From: a virus
Virus record (IMG/VR): IMGVR_UViG_3300009177_001484
Span: 1-62,320 of that record
Length of the DNA stretch: 62,320 bases
Strand: one strand, 5' to 3'
Position 1 is the first letter of the stretch. Each line of letters starts with the position of its first letter. The notes beneath the pieces were generated by a model that was not told where the DNA came from, made no database searches, and was given only the letters and a program-made list of their open reading frames with translations. The translations under genes were made by a program, and so were the position numbers. Positions 22,051 to 35,307 of this stretch are shown here, one piece after another.

Positions 22051-23001
22051 ATGTCCATATTCCTACCGTTCGCGATGCAGAATTTCCTGAACGTCCCGCT
22101 CGCCATGCACGAAAGCGCTGCCGATATGCTGGTTGCGGCCTTGTCGGGTCGGCTCAACATCAAGGAGTTGACCAGCGCCAGCGGCATCCACAACGAGCGC
22201 GACCTGGACGATCTCGCCTTGCTGGGGCGCGAACGGGTGGACGCGGGACAGCTGAGCTTCGTCTCAGCCACCAAGACGAAGTCATCACCGCAGCGCGCCC
22301 GGTCGTCGCGCGACAAGACGTTCCAGATCGCGGGCGACGTCGCGATCGTTCCGATCAAGGGTACGCTGATGAAGGATTGGGGGATCGGGCCCTATTCCGG
22401 CAGCACGGGCTATGACGGCATTCAGACCCAGATCATGGACGCGGTCCAGGACGACGACGTCAAGGCAATCTGGATGTGGATCGACAGTGGCGGCGGCACC
22501 GTCAACGGCCTCGAGCAGACCGCCGACCTGATCTACAATCTGCGCGAGAAGAATACGGGCAAGCCGATCTGGGCGATGGCTTCCGACTATGCCTATTCGG
22601 CTGCCTATATGCTCGGGACCGCGGCGGATAAATTCTTCGTGCCGCGGCTGGGCGGGGTAGGCTCGGTCGGCACGATCACCATGCACGCCGACCTGTCCAA
22701 GAAGCTCGAGAATGACGGCATCAAGGTGACGGTGATCCGGGCCGGAAAGAACAAGGCCAGGGCCAATGGAATCGAGCCGCTGGACGAAGAAACCCTCGCC
22801 CATATCGAGGCGCAATGCGCGGTACATCGCGAGGCTTTCATCGAGACGGTCGCCCGCAATATGGGCATCTCTAAAAAATCTGTCGCGGAAACCGAAGGTC
22901 TCGACTATATGGGGACCGCAGCCAAGGCCATCGGCTTCGTTACGGAAGTGCTTCCTGAACCAGAGGTTTGGGGAAAACTTCAGCGGAAAATCAACCGCTA
23001 A
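22051..23001 (+). CDS. S49-family prohead protease (gpC-like)
   Basis: 316 aa. SppA-like peptidase: MWIDSGGGTVNGLEQ, catalytic Ser in DYAYSAAYMLG (about residue 181) and Lys in RAGKNKARANG (about residue 231). It matures the portal and scaffold inside the prohead. In lambda the scaffold Nu3 is made from the same gene's 3' end; here the protease ends without that extension and a separate gene follows. Confidence 0.9.
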   Translation: MSIFLPFAMQNFLNVPLAMHESAADMLVAALSGRLNIKELTSASGIHNERDLDDLALLGRERVDAGQLSFVSATKTKSSPQRARSSRDKTFQIAGDVAIVPIKGTLMKDWGIGPYSGSTGYDGIQTQIMDAVQDDDVKAIWMWIDSGGGTVNGLEQTADLIYNLREKNTGKPIWAMASDYAYSAAYMLGTAADKFFVPRLGGVGSVGTITMHADLSKKLENDGIKVTVIRAGKNKARANGIEPLDEETLAHIEAQCAVHREAFIETVARNMGISKKSVAETEGLDYMGTAAKAIGFVTEVLPEPEVWGKLQRKINR

Positions 23002-23015
23002 CGAAGGATCTTACG

Positions 23016-23573
23016 ATGGCCGCACGTCTGGTTGCTCTTCAGAACCTGTTCAAGGGAGCGGGCGCGCCGTCCGCTGCAAAGTCTGGCGATGACGACGAGA
23101 ACCAGGGCGAGCGCCAGCCATCCAACGCCGACCCCGATATTGATGTCGTGCGCGCCGATGAGGTGAAGACCGGCATCGCTGCTGCAAAGCAGGACGGCCA
23201 CAAAGCAGGTTTTGCTGCAGCGAACGCGCGGTTCAAGGCCGTCCTCGAGAGCGACGCCGGTAAGGCCAACGTCCCCGGCGCCGTGTTCATGCTGACCCAC
23301 AGCAATGCCTCGGCCGAGGACATCATCGCCAAGCTGCCAGAGATGGGCGTTGCTGCGGCCACGCCACAGGCGAAGACCGAAGCTGAAGACAAGCCCGCCC
23401 AGACGGCCGACCTCAAAAATACCAATATCGACCTGGGCGGCAAGCCAGGCCAGCAGGCGAAGAACGGCGGCGATGACGACGATGGCGGCGTCAAGATGGT
23501 CAACAGCGTGATGGCCGAGGTCCACGGGGTCGACCTCACCAAGGCCGCGACGCCGGCGTCTTACGGATATTGA
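23016..23573 (+). CDS. Scaffold-like acidic protein
   Basis: 185 aa, rich in Asp, Ala and Gln, with a helical centre (VKTGIAAAKQDGHKAGFAAANARFKAVLES) and disordered flanks. Its position between protease and decoration protein is where a scaffolding protein is expected, and the composition agrees. No direct motif proves it. Confidence 0.6.
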   Translation: MAARLVALQNLFKGAGAPSAAKSGDDDENQGERQPSNADPDIDVVRADEVKTGIAAAKQDGHKAGFAAANARFKAVLESDAGKANVPGAVFMLTHSNASAEDIIAKLPEMGVAAATPQAKTEAEDKPAQTADLKNTNIDLGGKPGQQAKNGGDDDDGGVKMVNSVMAEVHGVDLTKAATPASYGY

Positions 23574-27294: not shown

Positions 27295-28497
27295 ATGGCA
27301 TGGAATCTTCGCTCTAAGGTCGTGGCGATGGGGGTCGCACTCCAGGTCTCGGCCGGCGTCTTCGTCTCTCCGTCCGCCGCCGACCTGGTCGCGGTCTCGG
27401 TCCCCAACAACAACTACAACGTCATCACCGCGGAAGATCCGACGGCGACGGGGGGTATCTGGGCCGCAAACCCGGTCTATCTCGGCAAGTCCGGTACCGC
27501 CGGCGCGACCATTCCGCTCCGCGGCCCAGGCGGCGCTTCGCCGCCGGCGCTGAACGCATGGCCGGTCGGCCGGATCATGCAGGCCGCAGGCTGGGTCGAA
27601 TTGCGCAATGGTGCCGCGATCACGGGCCAGGTGCTGCAGTCGGGCAACACCACGACATCGCTGGTGCTGGCGACCGCACAGCCCTCGACCGATGACCTCC
27701 TGATCGGCGTGCCGGTAACCCAGGCGCAGGTCGGCACGGGTTTCCGCGCGACGACGTTGATCCGCGACTATGTGGGTTCGACCCGCACCGCGCATCTGGC
27801 GGAGACGCTGGGCATCGCACCGGCGACCGGCGACGCCTACACCATTCCGCCCTATCTTCTCTACGTCCTGGGCACCCTCACCACGCCACCGCCCAAGCTG
27901 TCGATCTCTATCTGGCGCGACAAGAAGCGGTATGACTATGTCGACTGGTCGCCGACGTCGCTGTCGATCGATGTGCCGGTCGCCAACGACGCCAACCAGG
28001 TGTTCCCGTCGATCGAGTTCACCGGCAGTGCCACGCCTTATGCGGTCACCGACGAATCGGCCCCGATCCTCTCTTCGGCGGCGTTGTCGGTTCCGGTCGT
28101 GCCTGCCCGTGGCGGCAAGTTCTTCCTCGACAAGATCAAGCTGGGTCACCAGAGCGTCAAGTTCACCGAATCGACCGAGGTCGGCGCGCCTTCGAACCAG
28201 AACCAGGACATCGGCCAGGACGGCTACGAGATCATGTCCGGTACCAAGACGATCGACCTCGACCTGAACGACATGACGGTCGCGACCTACGATCTGAAGG
28301 CGACAGAGGATGCTCGGACGGTCGTGCCGATCCTGTCGACATTCGGGCTGGGCGCCGGCAATAATTTCGGCCTGCTGCTGCCGAACAACATCCTGAGCGG
28401 GCACAGCCCGGGCGACAGAAACGGGTTCACCAACCTGACTGGCAATGCAGCGCCCCAGGATGTAGATAAGTCAGCAGCGCTCGCAATTTGGTGGTGA
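27295..28497 (+). CDS. Major tail (tube) protein
   Basis: 400 aa, beta-rich, lying directly upstream of the tail chaperone and tape measure genes, the standard position of the tail tube subunit. Segments such as KLSISIWRDKKRYDYVDWSP and YEIMSGTKTIDLDLNDMTVATYDL suit a tube-fold protein. It is longer than lambda V (246 aa), so extra domains may decorate the tube. AGGAG precedes the ATG. Confidence 0.75.
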   Translation: MAWNLRSKVVAMGVALQVSAGVFVSPSAADLVAVSVPNNNYNVITAEDPTATGGIWAANPVYLGKSGTAGATIPLRGPGGASPPALNAWPVGRIMQAAGWVELRNGAAITGQVLQSGNTTTSLVLATAQPSTDDLLIGVPVTQAQVGTGFRATTLIRDYVGSTRTAHLAETLGIAPATGDAYTIPPYLLYVLGTLTTPPPKLSISIWRDKKRYDYVDWSPTSLSIDVPVANDANQVFPSIEFTGSATPYAVTDESAPILSSAALSVPVVPARGGKFFLDKIKLGHQSVKFTESTEVGAPSNQNQDIGQDGYEIMSGTKTIDLDLNDMTVATYDLKATEDARTVVPILSTFGLGAGNNFGLLLPNNILSGHSPGDRNGFTNLTGNAAPQDVDKSAALAIWW

Positions 28498-28540: not shown

Positions 28541-28573
28541 GGCCTCCTGATTGTCCCGAGCGATCAGGAGGCC
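28541..28573 (+). promoter_or_regulatory. Hairpin covering the tail-chaperone ribosome binding site
   Basis: Perfect 11-base stem (GGCCTCCTGAT / ATCAGGAGGCC) with an 11-base loop. No T run follows, so it is not a classical terminator. The right arm contains AGGAGG seven bases before the ATG at 28579, so in folded mRNA that site is hidden. Confidence 0.6.
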
Positions 28574-28578
28574 ATTTC

Positions 28579-29511
28579 ATGTCAAAAACAAATTCTTCAC
28601 AGCCACCCGCGCTCTATATTCCCGTCACGGCCGCCGTGCCGACCGACTTCACCCCGCCTTCGATCAAAGACACCGAGCACGACATGCGCTTCGTGGTGTC
28701 GATTCCCACGCCATCGGAGCGGGAGCGCCTGGGCGCCCGGCTCTACGCCTATGGCGTGGTCCAGGTCAGCCAGGAGCTGATGCGCGCGACGACGATCGAC
28801 GAGCTCTACAATCTGTTCCCGGAAGAGGAGGCTGAAGACAAGGCCAATTTCCTCGACACCTATTGGCAGCGCCAGATCATCGACGAAGAGAATATGACGC
28901 TGTGGACCGACAAGGAACGGCAGCGCATCCTGGACGAAATGGAAGGCGCACCGGCACGCGCCGCCTATGAGATGCCGATCAAGCTCAATCGCATCCGGGA
29001 CGACGCCAAAGCCACGATGCTGGTCGATGAGGCGTTCAATCGCTCGGAACGGCTTCGGACGCTGGGCGCCCGCCAGATAAACTATGCCCGTGAGGCTGGC
29101 CGCATGCAGATGCGCATGCACATCAAGGGATGTTTCCCGAACGCCAAGGGCGCCCCCGTGCCCGCGATCGATATCGAGGGTGATCTGCTTACCGTCGCGT
29201 CGCTCGATGCGATCCGCGATGCGATCGGCGAGGCGGCCTGGAAAGAACTGATCGACCACATCCAATCGCTCTACGATCTCGACAGGGAAGAGGTGGGAAA
29301 CTCCGACTCGCTGCCCGGGAAGCCGCCCGAAGCGACTGGTTCGCCAGAACCGAGCGGCGATTCGGCGAGCAGCGATGGACCTTCGACGACATCGAATATT
29401 GGAGCAACCCCGTCCGGCGAATCCGCGACGACCATCGCACCATCGTCGCCCTCTACCTCCTCAGCCGCAGCGACGCCGAAAAAGGCTGGCCCGACGGCAA
29501 AGGCCGCATAG
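28579..29511 (+). CDS. Tail assembly chaperone, zero-frame product (gpG-like)
   Basis: 310 aa. The first 240 residues are helical and acidic (FVVSIPTPSERERLGARLYAYG, DELYNLFPEEEAEDKANFLDTYW); the last 70, after codon 241, are Ser/Pro/Ala low complexity, as expected for a tail read only when no frameshift occurs. It lies between tail tube and tape measure genes. With the frameshifted form it should coat the tape measure protein during tail assembly. Confidence 0.78.
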   Translation: MSKTNSSQPPALYIPVTAAVPTDFTPPSIKDTEHDMRFVVSIPTPSERERLGARLYAYGVVQVSQELMRATTIDELYNLFPEEEAEDKANFLDTYWQRQIIDEENMTLWTDKERQRILDEMEGAPARAAYEMPIKLNRIRDDAKATMLVDEAFNRSERLRTLGARQINYAREAGRMQMRMHIKGCFPNAKGAPVPAIDIEGDLLTVASLDAIRDAIGEAAWKELIDHIQSLYDLDREEVGNSDSLPGKPPEATGSPEPSGDSASSDGPSTTSNIGATPSGESATTIAPSSPSTSSAAATPKKAGPTAKAA

Positions 29512-29579
29512 ACCAGCCCATCCGGCTGATCCGCGCGTTCGATGTCGTGAAGCAATATTACGATCAGCAGGAGGGCTAG
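28579..29579 (+). CDS. Tail assembly chaperone, -1 frameshift product (gpGT-like)
   Basis: The slippery heptamer GGGAAAC (29295-29301) is exactly in phase (GTG GGA AAC). After a -1 slip at 29301 the second frame stays open to the TAG at 29577-29579, adding 92 codons with protein-like content (RFGEQRWTFDDIEYWSNPVR, IDQPIRLIRAFDVVKQYY). The product is 333 aa. The second frame has no start codon of its own, ends one base before the next ATG, and the arrangement equals lambda G-T. A downstream hairpin (CGGG-AAGCCG-CCCG) may help the slip. Confidence 0.82.
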
Positions 29580-30272
29580 ATGGCCGCGCCGATCCGGTTC
29601 ATGTTCAAGGTGCCGGATTTCAAGGCGGCCTTTGCCGGCGAGGCGCGGACCTATCGGCGCAAGCGCGAGCAGGCCGCGCACATCGCGACCGACCGGGCCT
29701 CGCGCGAAGCGCAGGCCGTGCTGCGCGCCCGGATGAAAAGCGCGGGTCTCGGACGCCTCGGCAATGCGGTCGGCCAGACCTCGTCGCTGCGCAAGAAAGG
29801 CAAGTCGCCCTATGGCGTGCTCTATGCCAAGGGCGGCGACGATACGCTGGCCGGCGGCGCGCTCGAGGCTTATACCCAGGGCGTCATCATTCGGGCACGC
29901 AACCGGCAGTGGCTGGCATTCCAGACCCAGGCGGTGCAGCGACTGATCGGCCGCAGGCGGATGACGCCAGAGCGCTATAATCAATCCAGCCTGGTCACCC
30001 GCCTCGGCCCGCTGCATTTCCGTCCGGTGAAGCCTGGTCTCGCTTTCCTGGTCGCCCGCAACGTCACCCTCAGCCCAAAGGATGGCAGGGCCAAAGCCGC
30101 CGGCAAGCGCGCGCCGCGCACGAGGATCCCGGCGAAGGAAGTCGTCGTGTTCGTGCTCATTCGCTTCACGCGGCGCGGCAAGCGGCTCGACAAGGACCAG
30201 ACGGTCGCACCGGTGTTCGCAAAGGTAGGTCCCTATTACGGCGAGGCCTTGGCCGAATTGCTGACAGCGTGA
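29580..30272 (+). CDS. DUF6441-like tail protein
   Basis: 230 aa, basic. It starts MAAPIRFMFKVPDFKAAFAGE and holds AKGGDDTLAGGALEAYTQG and a C-terminal KVGPYYGEALAELLTA, agreeing with the phage family DUF6441 as I remember it. It lies between chaperone and tape measure; possibly a tail-completion factor. The ATG follows the frameshift product's stop by one base. Confidence 0.7.
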   Translation: MAAPIRFMFKVPDFKAAFAGEARTYRRKREQAAHIATDRASREAQAVLRARMKSAGLGRLGNAVGQTSSLRKKGKSPYGVLYAKGGDDTLAGGALEAYTQGVIIRARNRQWLAFQTQAVQRLIGRRRMTPERYNQSSLVTRLGPLHFRPVKPGLAFLVARNVTLSPKDGRAKAAGKRAPRTRIPAKEVVVFVLIRFTRRGKRLDKDQTVAPVFAKVGPYYGEALAELLTA

Positions 30273-30342: not shown

Positions 30343-33300
30343 TTGCCGCGCGCATCCACCTTCACGACCTATTGCAACACGGTACTCGACAAGAACACCG
30401 AGCAGCAGTTCGACCGGCTGGCGGCGGCGGCGACACGCGCCTTCACGACCATCCAGCGCAGCGCATCTTCTGCCTCGGCCGCCACGGCCGGGCTGTTGGG
30501 CGGGCGGGGCACCGGAGGGCTTGGCGCCGGCACCAGTCCCGCCGTCCGGTTGCAGGCCCAGGCCCAGCGCGCGGCGGCCGTCGCCTACCAGGTCAATGCA
30601 CGCGCTGCCCGGGACAATAGCGCGGCGGTAGAGCGGCAGGGGCGCATCGCGGAAGCCGCGGCGCGCAAGAACAGCCTGCTGAGCAAGACGCTCGAGACCA
30701 GCGCGACGTCGCTGCGGATCGTCCAGGGCCAGCTCGGCCCGGTGGCGGGCCGGGTCCAGGCCGTCGCCGGCGCGATCAACGAACTGACCGGCCTGCGTCT
30801 TGGCGTCGCCGGGCTGGGTGCCGCGATCTTCGGGCTGGCGCGCAGCGCGAACCAGTTCACCGAGATCCGCACCGCGCTTCAACCCTTTTACGAAACCCAG
30901 CGCGACGTGAACGCGGCGATGGCGGACGTGGTGGGCATTTCCAACCGGTCGCGCCAGGCGCTGGCGCCGATCGCCCAGCTCTACACCCGCATCAACCAGG
31001 CGGGGAAAGAGTTCGGAATCACCAGCGCGCGGGCGGCGCGGATCACCGAGATCGCCGCCAAGGCCGCCTCGCTGTCGGGAGGATCCAAGGACAGCCAGAA
31101 CGATGCGTTGCGCCAGTTTACGCAAGGCCTGGGATCGAACCAGTTCGGCGGCGACGAGCTGCGGTCGGTCAAGGAAGGCGCGTTCCGCCTGGCCAAGGCG
31201 ATCGCCGACGGGCTCGGGGTATCGATCGCCCAGCTGAAGGAGCTCGGCGCCAATGGCGAGCTCACCGCCGAGAAGGTGGCGACCGCGCTCGAGCGTTCGG
31301 CCGACCGGATCGAGACCGAATTCGGCCGGATGGATCAGACGCTGGGATCGTCCAGCACCAAGTTCGTCAACAATCTGCTTTTGATGGCAGGCGGGATCGA
31401 TTCGACGCTGGGCCTGACATCGACGCTTGCGCGCTCCCTGTCTTTCGTCGCCGACAACCTCAAGGGCCTGGCGAAGATCGCGGCCGGCGTGGCCGCCGGG
31501 TTCGCAGCGATCAAGGCCGCGACCTTCGTCGGCGAGATCTCCAGCGGCGTGAAACAGTTCCTGGTGATGCAGGCCGCGGTCACCGAGCTCGGCAAGCGTC
31601 GCTCGGCCGAAGCGCTGGTCGCCAAGCATGCCGCGGCCGAGCGCGTTCAGGAGTTGGAAGAGCAACGGCTCGAGATCTTCCGGGTAATCGGGGCGCTTGA
31701 GCAGCAGGCCGCCGAGGAAGCCAAGATCGCGAATTTGGCAAACCGCAATGCAGCCGCTGGATTTCCGGGTGCGTCGGTCGGCGGCAAGATCGTCGGCGCC
31801 GCCGAGGCCAATGCCAAGCTTGCTGATACGGCTGGGAAGTTAAGCCAGGCCCAGGCCGCGGCCGCGCGCAACAGTCGGCTGTACGAGACAGCCGTCAGTA
31901 ATGCCGCTGTAGCCACTGATCGTTACGAAAAGCGGGTTGCCATTGCATCAGGCCGCACCAGTCTTTTCAAGCTTGGAATGTCGGGTCTGCTCAGCGTGTT
32001 CAATCCTTATGCGCTCGTTGTGGGGCTCGCGACGACCGCGCTGATCAGTTACGCCACGCGAACAACTGCTGCGGAAAAAGCCATAGCAGGGCTGACCGCC
32101 GAGCAGCGCAATGCGATCGACGCAATTGACGCGACGACCAAAGCCTTGCTTGCCCAGGATTCGGTGCTGGCGCGGCAGGAGGTTCGGTCCCGCAAGAAGT
32201 TGGCCAATGATGCCAACGATGCCGAGAAGGAGGCCCGCGGCAATCTCGCCAGCAGCATCAATGAGTTGGCCAATGGCGCCGGCTTTAGCACCGACGGCGG
32301 GAAACTGCGAAATATTGCCAACCAGCTGCGCGACGGCATCCTGACGATCAAGGACGCGGACGCCAAGCTCGAGCCGATCAGGCAGCGCAACCCGTCTCTC
32401 TTCCGTGCTGGCATCGTCGATAAGATCCTGGGCGGTGCACAGACCAAGATCGACGACCAGATCAAGGAAGGGATGAAGCAAGCCCAGGTGCTCAAGTTCT
32501 CGCAGAAGAACCTGACGGACGCACAGGACGCGCTCGACCAAGCATTGAAGCATCCACCTGCAGCGCCGACGACGACCCCTCCGTCAACCGCGAACATTGC
32601 TGCGCTTGCGGCCCAGGCCGAGGTCGCCGCCTATGATGACGGCACCCATGCGCTGAAGGAAGCATCCGCCCGGCGTAAAGCCGCGATCGCGGCGCTCGAC
32701 AGCGAGTTCGGGGTCAAGGGAGGCAAGATCGATCCGTCGAAGTCGAACGACTATCTGGCGCGCCGCACCGAGATCGAGAAGACATACAAGCAGGAGACCG
32801 ACCTCGCGCGCGCCCAGAAGGCAGCCGCCGCGCAGGCCCTGTCCGATCAGCGCAAGCGCGGCCGTGAAGCGATCCAGCTGGTCAATCAACAGGAAACTGC
32901 CGAGGAGCGCATCGCGCGGATCCGTGAGAAGTTCGACGAGGCACCGCGGCTCGCCGACCAGGGCAAGCAGGCCCTGCGCGAACTGGACGATCTCATCAAG
33001 AAATATGGCGAGTTGAAGGATGCCAAGAGCCGGGCGATCGTCGCCGACGCGACCTCGGCCCGTGGCGTCGTCGTCGACAATCTCGACAAGCCCTACAAGG
33101 AATATCTCCGCGCCCAGCAGGAGGGTCTCGCGATTCAGCGGCTGGTGCTCCAGGGAAGGAACGCAGAGGCCGCCGCGCTCCAGACCATCTATGATCTCAC
33201 CGAACAGATGGGTCCGCTCGACGACGCGCGCAAAAAGCGGATCTACGAAGCCGCGGTCGCCAACGAACAGATCACGCGCGAGCTGGAAGCCCAGCAGCGG

Positions 33301-35307
33301 CTGGTCAACGCGTACACCTCGGCGGTCGGAGACGCGCAGCGCACGCTCGAGGACTTCCTCGGCAACCTGCGCAAAAATCCAAAGGACGCCTTCAAGAACC
33401 TGGGCAAGCAGCTCCAGGACAATCTCGGCAACCTGCAGATACGGCTGATCTCGGAGAAACTGTTCGGCGGTCTCGAGGACGAACTGAAGGATCTGGTCAA
33501 CGGCAATAGCGGCGTGCGGTCGGCCAATGATTTCCTGAAAGACCAGACCGAGCGCGCCGGCGATTCGCTGTCAGAAATGGCTGACACGGTCGTCAATGTT
33601 ACCAACAAGCTTTCTGAGGTGGCCTCGGGTACCGCCGTCCCCGGCACGCCCGGTTCGCCAGCATCCCAGGTCGGCATTGGCGCGGCCGCCGCCACGATCG
33701 GCAAGGCCGTCAGTGAGGCCGTAGGCGACAAGGTCGACGACATCGTCGTCACGGGCAAGCGCGGAACCGACCCGTCGACAGCCGCGGCACGTGAATTGCC
33801 GAATGCGGTGAAGGCGATCGAGAAGATCAACGAGGGCCTGGTCAAGAACCTGCAGAAGATCCTCGGGGTCCAGTTACCCCAGGTCCTGCAGGGTGTACTG
33901 GCACAAGGTCTCACCGGTTACGCCCAGGCAGGCCCGGTCGGTGGCGTACTCGGCGCGCTGAAGGGCATTCCGGGGGTCACCGGCAAGCTCGACAAGCTGC
34001 TCGGCAAGAGTGATGCGCTGGGTGGCGCGATTGGTGGCGCGCAGACCGGGGCGATGGTCGCCGGCATCGGCAAGATGCTCGGGCTCAAGACCTCAACGCT
34101 CGGCGGGCAGATCGGCGGGGCAGCCGGATCATTCCTGCCCATCCCCGGCGGGCAGTTGATCGGCTCGATCATCGGCTCGGTGGTCGGCGGCCTGTTCAAG
34201 AAGACCCCGAAGGCCAGCACCAACCTGCGGACCCGCGACGACGACACCATCGATATCTATGGCACGACCGGCCAGGGCAAGGGCAAGGCGGAACGCAAGG
34301 CGGCGGCCAAGGCTGCGGCCCACGCGATCGACGATGCGCTGTTGAACCTCATGGATCAGTTCGGCACCGGGCTGGCGGACAATGTCAAAATTGGCGCGAT
34401 CGGCAGCAAGAAAAAGAAGTTCTTTTTCGACGCACCCGGCGCCGGCGGCAAAGAGTATTTCTCCGACCAGGCCGACGCGATCACGGCCGCGATCACCTAT
34501 GCGGTCAACCATGGCGTGATCGAGGGCATGAAACAGTCGGTCAAGAACCTGATCACCAGCGGCAAGGATCTCAATACCCAGATCGAGAAAGCCTCCCTGC
34601 TCGAATCCATTCCCAAGCGCCTGCTCGCCTTCACCGATCCGGTGCGCGCCGCGGTCGAAGGGGTGAACGACGAATTCAAGCAGATCATCCGGGTGCTCGA
34701 TGAAGCCGATGCGTCGGCCAGCGAATATGCCGATGCGCAAAAGCTTTATGAATTCGAGCGCGCCAAGGCGATCGAGCAGGCGACCAGCCAGGCCTCGAGC
34801 GCGATCGAGGATTTCCTGAAGGACATGAAGGGCGGCAGCAACAGCCCGCTCAGCCGCCGCGCGGTCTATGCGAACGCACAGTCCGACTTTTCGAAGATCG
34901 CCAGCGACGTCAACGCCGGCAAGGCGGTGGACGACAACAAGCTGCTCGATGCCGCGACCCGCTTCCAGGATGCCAGCCGCGCGCTCAACGGATCGAACCA
35001 GAGCTTCTTCAGCGACTTCGATACGATCTTCAACCTGCTCACGAAGGCCAAGGCCAACATCACCGGGAGCACGACGACCTCGACGGGGACCCTGCCGGCG
35101 TCGCCGTTCGCCAACAACAGCAGCGTCAACGATGCGATCGCGGCGACCAGCCAGGCGCAGGTGGCGGCGACCAACACCCAGACCAACACGCTAGCCGGCA
35201 AGCTCGACACCCTGGCCGCGATCATGAAGGACGTGTTCGCCGGCCTGCCCAACGCGCGCGTCGGCTATAGCAAGGCGCTGGCGATGCTGCCGGGCATCAG
35301 GCTGTGA
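30343..35307 (+). CDS. Tape measure protein
   Basis: 1654 aa, which would give a long flexible tail. The N-terminal third carries the tape-measure domain (ALAPIAQLYTRINQAGKEFG to DRIETEFGRMDQTLGSSSTKFVNN), followed by hydrophobic helices and long coiled coils. A Gly/Ala-rich segment (GGVLGALKGIPGVTGKL, IGSIIGSVVGGLF) could form the membrane-active part used in DNA ejection. TTG start with GGGAGA upstream. Confidence 0.92.
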   Translation: MPRASTFTTYCNTVLDKNTEQQFDRLAAAATRAFTTIQRSASSASAATAGLLGGRGTGGLGAGTSPAVRLQAQAQRAAAVAYQVNARAARDNSAAVERQGRIAEAAARKNSLLSKTLETSATSLRIVQGQLGPVAGRVQAVAGAINELTGLRLGVAGLGAAIFGLARSANQFTEIRTALQPFYETQRDVNAAMADVVGISNRSRQALAPIAQLYTRINQAGKEFGITSARAARITEIAAKAASLSGGSKDSQNDALRQFTQGLGSNQFGGDELRSVKEGAFRLAKAIADGLGVSIAQLKELGANGELTAEKVATALERSADRIETEFGRMDQTLGSSSTKFVNNLLLMAGGIDSTLGLTSTLARSLSFVADNLKGLAKIAAGVAAGFAAIKAATFVGEISSGVKQFLVMQAAVTELGKRRSAEALVAKHAAAERVQELEEQRLEIFRVIGALEQQAAEEAKIANLANRNAAAGFPGASVGGKIVGAAEANAKLADTAGKLSQAQAAAARNSRLYETAVSNAAVATDRYEKRVAIASGRTSLFKLGMSGLLSVFNPYALVVGLATTALISYATRTTAAEKAIAGLTAEQRNAIDAIDATTKALLAQDSVLARQEVRSRKKLANDANDAEKEARGNLASSINELANGAGFSTDGGKLRNIANQLRDGILTIKDADAKLEPIRQRNPSLFRAGIVDKILGGAQTKIDDQIKEGMKQAQVLKFSQKNLTDAQDALDQALKHPPAAPTTTPPSTANIAALAAQAEVAAYDDGTHALKEASARRKAAIAALDSEFGVKGGKIDPSKSNDYLARRTEIEKTYKQETDLARAQKAAAAQALSDQRKRGREAIQLVNQQETAEERIARIREKFDEAPRLADQGKQALRELDDLIKKYGELKDAKSRAIVADATSARGVVVDNLDKPYKEYLRAQQEGLAIQRLVLQGRNAEAAALQTIYDLTEQMGPLDDARKKRIYEAAVANEQITRELEAQQRLVNAYTSAVGDAQRTLEDFLGNLRKNPKDAFKNLGKQLQDNLGNLQIRLISEKLFGGLEDELKDLVNGNSGVRSANDFLKDQTERAGDSLSEMADTVVNVTNKLSEVASGTAVPGTPGSPASQVGIGAAAATIGKAVSEAVGDKVDDIVVTGKRGTDPSTAAARELPNAVKAIEKINEGLVKNLQKILGVQLPQVLQGVLAQGLTGYAQAGPVGGVLGALKGIPGVTGKLDKLLGKSDALGGAIGGAQTGAMVAGIGKMLGLKTSTLGGQIGGAAGSFLPIPGGQLIGSIIGSVVGGLFKKTPKASTNLRTRDDDTIDIYGTTGQGKGKAERKAAAKAAAHAIDDALLNLMDQFGTGLADNVKIGAIGSKKKKFFFDAPGAGGKEYFSDQADAITAAITYAVNHGVIEGMKQSVKNLITSGKDLNTQIEKASLLESIPKRLLAFTDPVRAAVEGVNDEFKQIIRVLDEADASASEYADAQKLYEFERAKAIEQATSQASSAIEDFLKDMKGGSNSPLSRRAVYANAQSDFSKIASDVNAGKAVDDNKLLDAATRFQDASRALNGSNQSFFSDFDTIFNLLTKAKANITGSTTTSTGTLPASPFANNSSVNDAIAATSQAQVAATNTQTNTLAGKLDTLAAIMKDVFAGLPNARVGYSKALAMLPGIRL

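Follow-up and report, generated by a model that had tools for sequence, protein, structure and literature searches.

A probable lambda G/GT-type programmed -1 ribosomal frameshift for a tail assembly chaperone in a viral genome and its relatives

The viral DNA analysed here (IMG/VR record IMGVR_UViG_3300009177_001484, positions 1 to 62,320; this whole stretch of 62,320 nucleotides is referred to as the window) very probably carries a programmed -1 ribosomal frameshift of the lambda G/GT type that makes a tail assembly chaperone (Table 1). The phase of the slippery heptamer, a homologous extension, the conservation of the heptamer, and the gene order all support a frameshift of this type, which an initial annotation had proposed; the chaperone role of G and GT is drawn from the gene order and the G/GT architecture, and is inferred, as are the slippage itself and its efficiency. 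The mechanism itself is ordinary and long known, and what is new is this set of members without a named family, a set of phages (some of them sphingomonad-linked) whose slippery site is either GGGAAAC or AAAAAAC. The result also corrects the gene model, in that gene calling from ORFs would overlook the T domain, a conserved tail domain of 92 residues without a Pfam or PHROG model.

Table 1. Features of the putative frameshift locus and of the neighbouring tail genes, in coordinates of the window
Feature	Position	Strand	Basis
Tail-tube-like (major tail) protein gene, upstream of G	27295..28497	+	Homology, position
Zero-frame gene G, 310 aa, putative tail assembly chaperone	28579..29511	+	Phase, ORF, AlphaFold model
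Slippery heptamer G|GGA|AAC (-1 shift to GGG AAA)	29295..29301	+	In-phase homologues GGGAAAC/AAAAAAC in all same-order relatives
-1-frame extension T, 92 codons + TAG, predicted only as GT fusion	29301..29579	+	Open frame, homologues, no start, model
Possible stimulatory RNA stem-loop just 3' of the heptamer	29302..29381	+	MFE -35.3 kcal/mol
DUF6441-like gene, directly 3' of the extension	29580..30272	+	phrog_6367, E 2.7e-14
Tail length tape measure protein gene, TTG start	30343..35307	+	Pfam TMP_3, 6.4e-43; phrog_339, 8.7e-73

The zero-frame codons at GGGAAAC, inside the ORF of G, are GGA (29296–29298) and AAC (29299–29301). In the -1 frame, no stop occurs between 29184 and the TAG at 29577–29579, a stretch with 92 codons past the slip, and this TAG abuts the next ATG at 29580; the sole ATG, GTG, or TTG within this open frame is a GTG ten codons short of the stop. 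The phase, the 92-codon open frame, and its end against the next gene had thus been read correctly in the initial annotation, and its claim that the frame has no start codon of its own holds as far as that GTG.

The locus is placed between the tail-tube-like and tape measure genes, with one DUF6441-like gene intervening before the latter. The tape measure assignment is firm, and the tail-tube identity of the upstream gene is suggested by homology and by a weak Phage_tube_2 match of its counterpart in the group of Synechococcus phage MinM1; counterparts of 50–63% identity occupy the same place in the relatives L018, L025, L027, L029, and L032. The product of the DUF6441-like gene is 30% identical to the DUF6441 protein of MinM1, and the gene appears to move around the tail module: L026 has it behind the tape measure gene, and Rhodobacter phages (L020) have it ahead of the tail tube gene. 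G comprises a folded body (residues ~19–235), followed past the slip site by a 69-aa tail rich in Ser, Pro, Thr, and Ala; it is predicted to be mostly helical, with a pLDDT of 85.7 in the AlphaFold model (residues 1–241). The extension T is likewise predicted to fold (pLDDT, 81.4; pTM, 0.74). No named tail assembly chaperone family in Pfam or PHROGs matched G or T, fold searches with both models against solved or viral chaperone structures gave no strong match, and no literature was found that names DUF6441, MinM1, or such an arrangement in Sphingomonas phages. This absence of a family or fold match, together with the fact that a DUF6441-like gene and not the tape measure gene directly follows GT, would suit a real -1 frameshift whose product is something other than a tail assembly chaperone, but we regard that reading as very unlikely, given a site between a conserved tail-tube-like gene and the tape measure gene and a G/GT layout like that of Rhodobacter phage RcKemmy. 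The tail chaperone role given in the initial annotation is thus putative, drawn from position and architecture.

Relatives were sought with the downstream DUF6441-like gene as the anchor, and were thus found independently of the heptamer or the extension. The search gave seven further distinct lineages (L016, L017-19, L025, L027, L029, L032, and L034) with a common gene order of tail-tube-like gene, G, extension, DUF6441-like gene, and tape measure gene; L026, in which the DUF6441-like gene comes after the tape measure gene, was left out of the heptamer comparison. All seven have an in-phase heptamer at the homologous codon, in which XXX is always GGG or AAA, and a homologous extension of 93–118 codons, which stops at the next gene or close to it. 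Four lineages (the window, L016, L017-19, and L025) carry GGGAAAC, and L027, L029, L032, L034, L007-9, and MinM1 carry AAAAAAC, a mixture of GGG and AAA never being seen among lineages with this gene order; the type of heptamer does not track the anchor-gene tree, which is poorly resolved. The extension of the window is 44–61% identical to those of the near group, except for L034 (25%), and 28–30% identical to those of MinM1 and its kin (L007-9). MinM1 itself was found via the extension (E, 0.02), a match backed by the shared neighbouring DUF6441 gene. Direct searches against named phages with the G protein and with the tail-tube-like protein, and a search at the DNA level, gave no match. Homologues of the extension and a heptamer kept at the homologous codon, the two checks put forward at the outset, were therefore both found among the relatives. 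L025 is a Sphingomonadaceae MAG and L026 a contig of Sphingopyxis sp. 2PD, and it is from this origin only that the host of the phage is taken to be probably a sphingomonad-type bacterium.

The relatives also bound the point of slippage. In MinM1 and its kin L007-9, the sequence reads A|AAA|AAC|TGA followed by the homologous extension, and with the zero-frame TGA directly 3' of AAAAAAC (MinM1/L007) the slip could occur no later than the heptamer; L032 has a -1 frame that opens just 3 nt 5' of the heptamer, which would place the slip at or after that point. By homology across these loci, the slip is placed on the heptamer, bounded from both sides. Past the slip site, substitutions among five close relatives fall on -1 codon positions 1, 2, and 3 at 0.31, 0.28, and 0.49, respectively, a pattern that, as far as sequence comparison goes, is that of a -1 coding frame with wobble positions favoured. 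This bias and the predicted fold bear out the description of the -1 frame as protein-like.

It is highly improbable that the extension constitutes an independent gene translated from a start codon of its own, or that it is decoded otherwise, for example by re-initiation. The homologue in MinM1 is indeed annotated as a separate CDS starting from GTG, but the -1 frame has no possible start before its last 10 codons in the window and none anywhere in L018, and the conserved KLR(L/I)AAR begins at the heptamer, upstream of the GTG annotated in MinM1. In that record (ON981384.1; L002:149-403; record 1-577), the T extension is given as a free-standing gene with the GTG start, the G gene crosses the record ends and is marked only by a misc_feature, and the frameshift at A|AAA|AAC|TGA is unannotated.

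How much the heptamer and the open frame are worth by themselves was gauged on the long ORFs of the plus strand, 40 in the window with a total of 14,731 codons. In-phase heptamers of the form X XXY YYZ (Y = A/T) occur 15 times among these codons, and 24% of them have a -1 frame that runs 94 or more codons without a stop; past the slip, the codon-usage score shows a mild preference for the -1 frame (0.13 vs -0.02 bits per codon for the zero frame). Because equally long -1 frames are common and heptamers recur, the window alone proves nothing, and a heptamer with an open -1 frame within it is weak evidence; it is conservation across the relatives that, on sequence grounds, settles the frameshift question. 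A second site, GGGAAAA at 22971 near the end of the protease gene, also precedes a long -1 frame, and was rejected since the gene that follows starts at an ATG of its own and since the end of the protease gene, read in two relatives, has no heptamer in either. In that region of the window, the head maturation protease gene (22051–23001) is followed by a separate scaffold-like gene (23015–23573), and the protease frame is much longer in two relatives (G004, 460 aa; G005, 447 aa), which suggests a protease-scaffold fusion in these. The frequent open -1 frames of this GC-rich window, the 15 heptamers, and the long frame at 22971 would all be in keeping with a chance origin of both heptamer and open frame at 29295, yet this has hardly any probability, as every same-order relative keeps both heptamer and extension at the homologous place. 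An origin by sequencing error or a recent frameshift mutation splitting one gene, conceivable for any two overlapping frames, is scarcely credible either, since a second contig (IMGVR_UViG_3300009101_000219) differs at a single position over 4985 bases and the same -1 arrangement is kept in distinct, independent lineages.

The zero frame continues for 69 codons past AAC in the window and is rich in Ser, Pro, Ala, and Thr, as the initial annotation had described. Its second codon position coincides with the GC-rich wobble position of the -1 frame, which accounts for this composition; in the window and L016, the zero-frame stop sits within I(D/E)QP, a conserved motif of the -1 frame. When the -1 protein was randomly recoded with synonymous codons, the zero-frame open lengths resembled those observed (reached by 0.14 to 1.0 of the simulations per locus), so that no selection on the zero-frame tail need be invoked, and its standing as a selected feature was rejected. 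The tail is thus best seen as a by-product of coding in the -1 frame, and its composition, although correctly noted, adds no independent support for the frameshift. We think it unlikely that the zero-frame tail of G (69–84 codons, rich in Ser, Thr, and Pro) has a function of its own and that the stretch after the heptamer is dual-coding; if so, abundant G would bear an unstructured tail and rare GT a folded domain.

A stimulatory stem-loop 3' of the heptamer is plausible. The mean folding z of the 75 nt past the heptamer is -3.05 over 11 loci, the lowest among all offsets tested, with the strongest folding in MinM1/L007 and L032; in the window itself, the value of -1.35 (rank 8 of 54 windows) is unremarkable, and the stem-loop at 29302–29381 has a z of -1.57. 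No compensatory pairs were seen in the consensus stem, and the stem was accordingly rejected as a proven conserved structure. A perfect 11-bp hairpin (28541–28573) lies farther upstream, between the tail-tube-like gene and G, with the Shine-Dalgarno sequence AGGAGG of G within its 3' arm; strong hairpins of differing sequence occur at the same intergenic spot in L018, L025, L027, L029, and L007, some of them followed by T runs. This element is a candidate for an attenuator/terminator or for a hairpin hiding the ribosome site.

In the mechanism that we propose, most ribosomes would translate G through to the zero-frame stop at 29511, while a minority would move back by one base at G|GGA|AAC, probably aided by the downstream stem-loop, as tRNA-Gly re-pairs with GGG and tRNA-Asn with AAA. 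The slipped ribosomes would make the GT fusion, with its T domain of 92 residues. If lambda is a guide, G may bind the tape measure protein and a few GT molecules may recruit tail tube subunits; neither G nor GT need be part of the finished virion.

Like lambda G/GT, the proposed system has a heptamer beginning G|GGA|AA for its -1 shift, placed toward the 3' end of a gene located between those for the tail tube and tape measure, and a C-terminal extension in the -1 frame. It differs in that the heptamer ends in C whereas that of lambda ends in G, that GT is separated from the tape measure gene by a DUF6441-like gene, and that G has a long zero-frame tail of 69 codons and no match to named chaperone families. 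Synechococcus phage MinM1 (ON981384) likewise has a homologous extension, preceded by A|AAA|AAC and adjoining a DUF6441 gene, but its zero frame stops at once (TGA) and the extension is annotated only as a hypothetical protein. A review (PMC5009743) describes the lambda mechanism, gives G_GGA_AAC and A_AAA_AAC as g-t shift sites in HCTV-1 and HCTV-2, and reports that in E. coli A_AAA_AAC is less slippery than A_AAA_AAG. Two further phages probably contain unannotated tail chaperone frameshifts with an RcKemmy-like extension, namely Synechococcus phage Sc-Yong805-1 (OP858991.1; L021:4437-5134), after the run GAAAAAAAAGG, and human gut phage MT835566.1 (L023:4418-5200), after GCAAAAAACGG. In RcKemmy itself (MW677517, genes 15/16), the T part belongs to another family (DUF7697), the zero-frame tail is shorter, and the DUF6441-like gene is upstream of the tail tube gene; nevertheless, GGGAAAC is present in the identical phase between the tail tube and tape measure genes, the tail assembly chaperone is annotated as a joined CDS, and most phages of the same Rhodobacter study were reported with the frameshift (PMC8601537).
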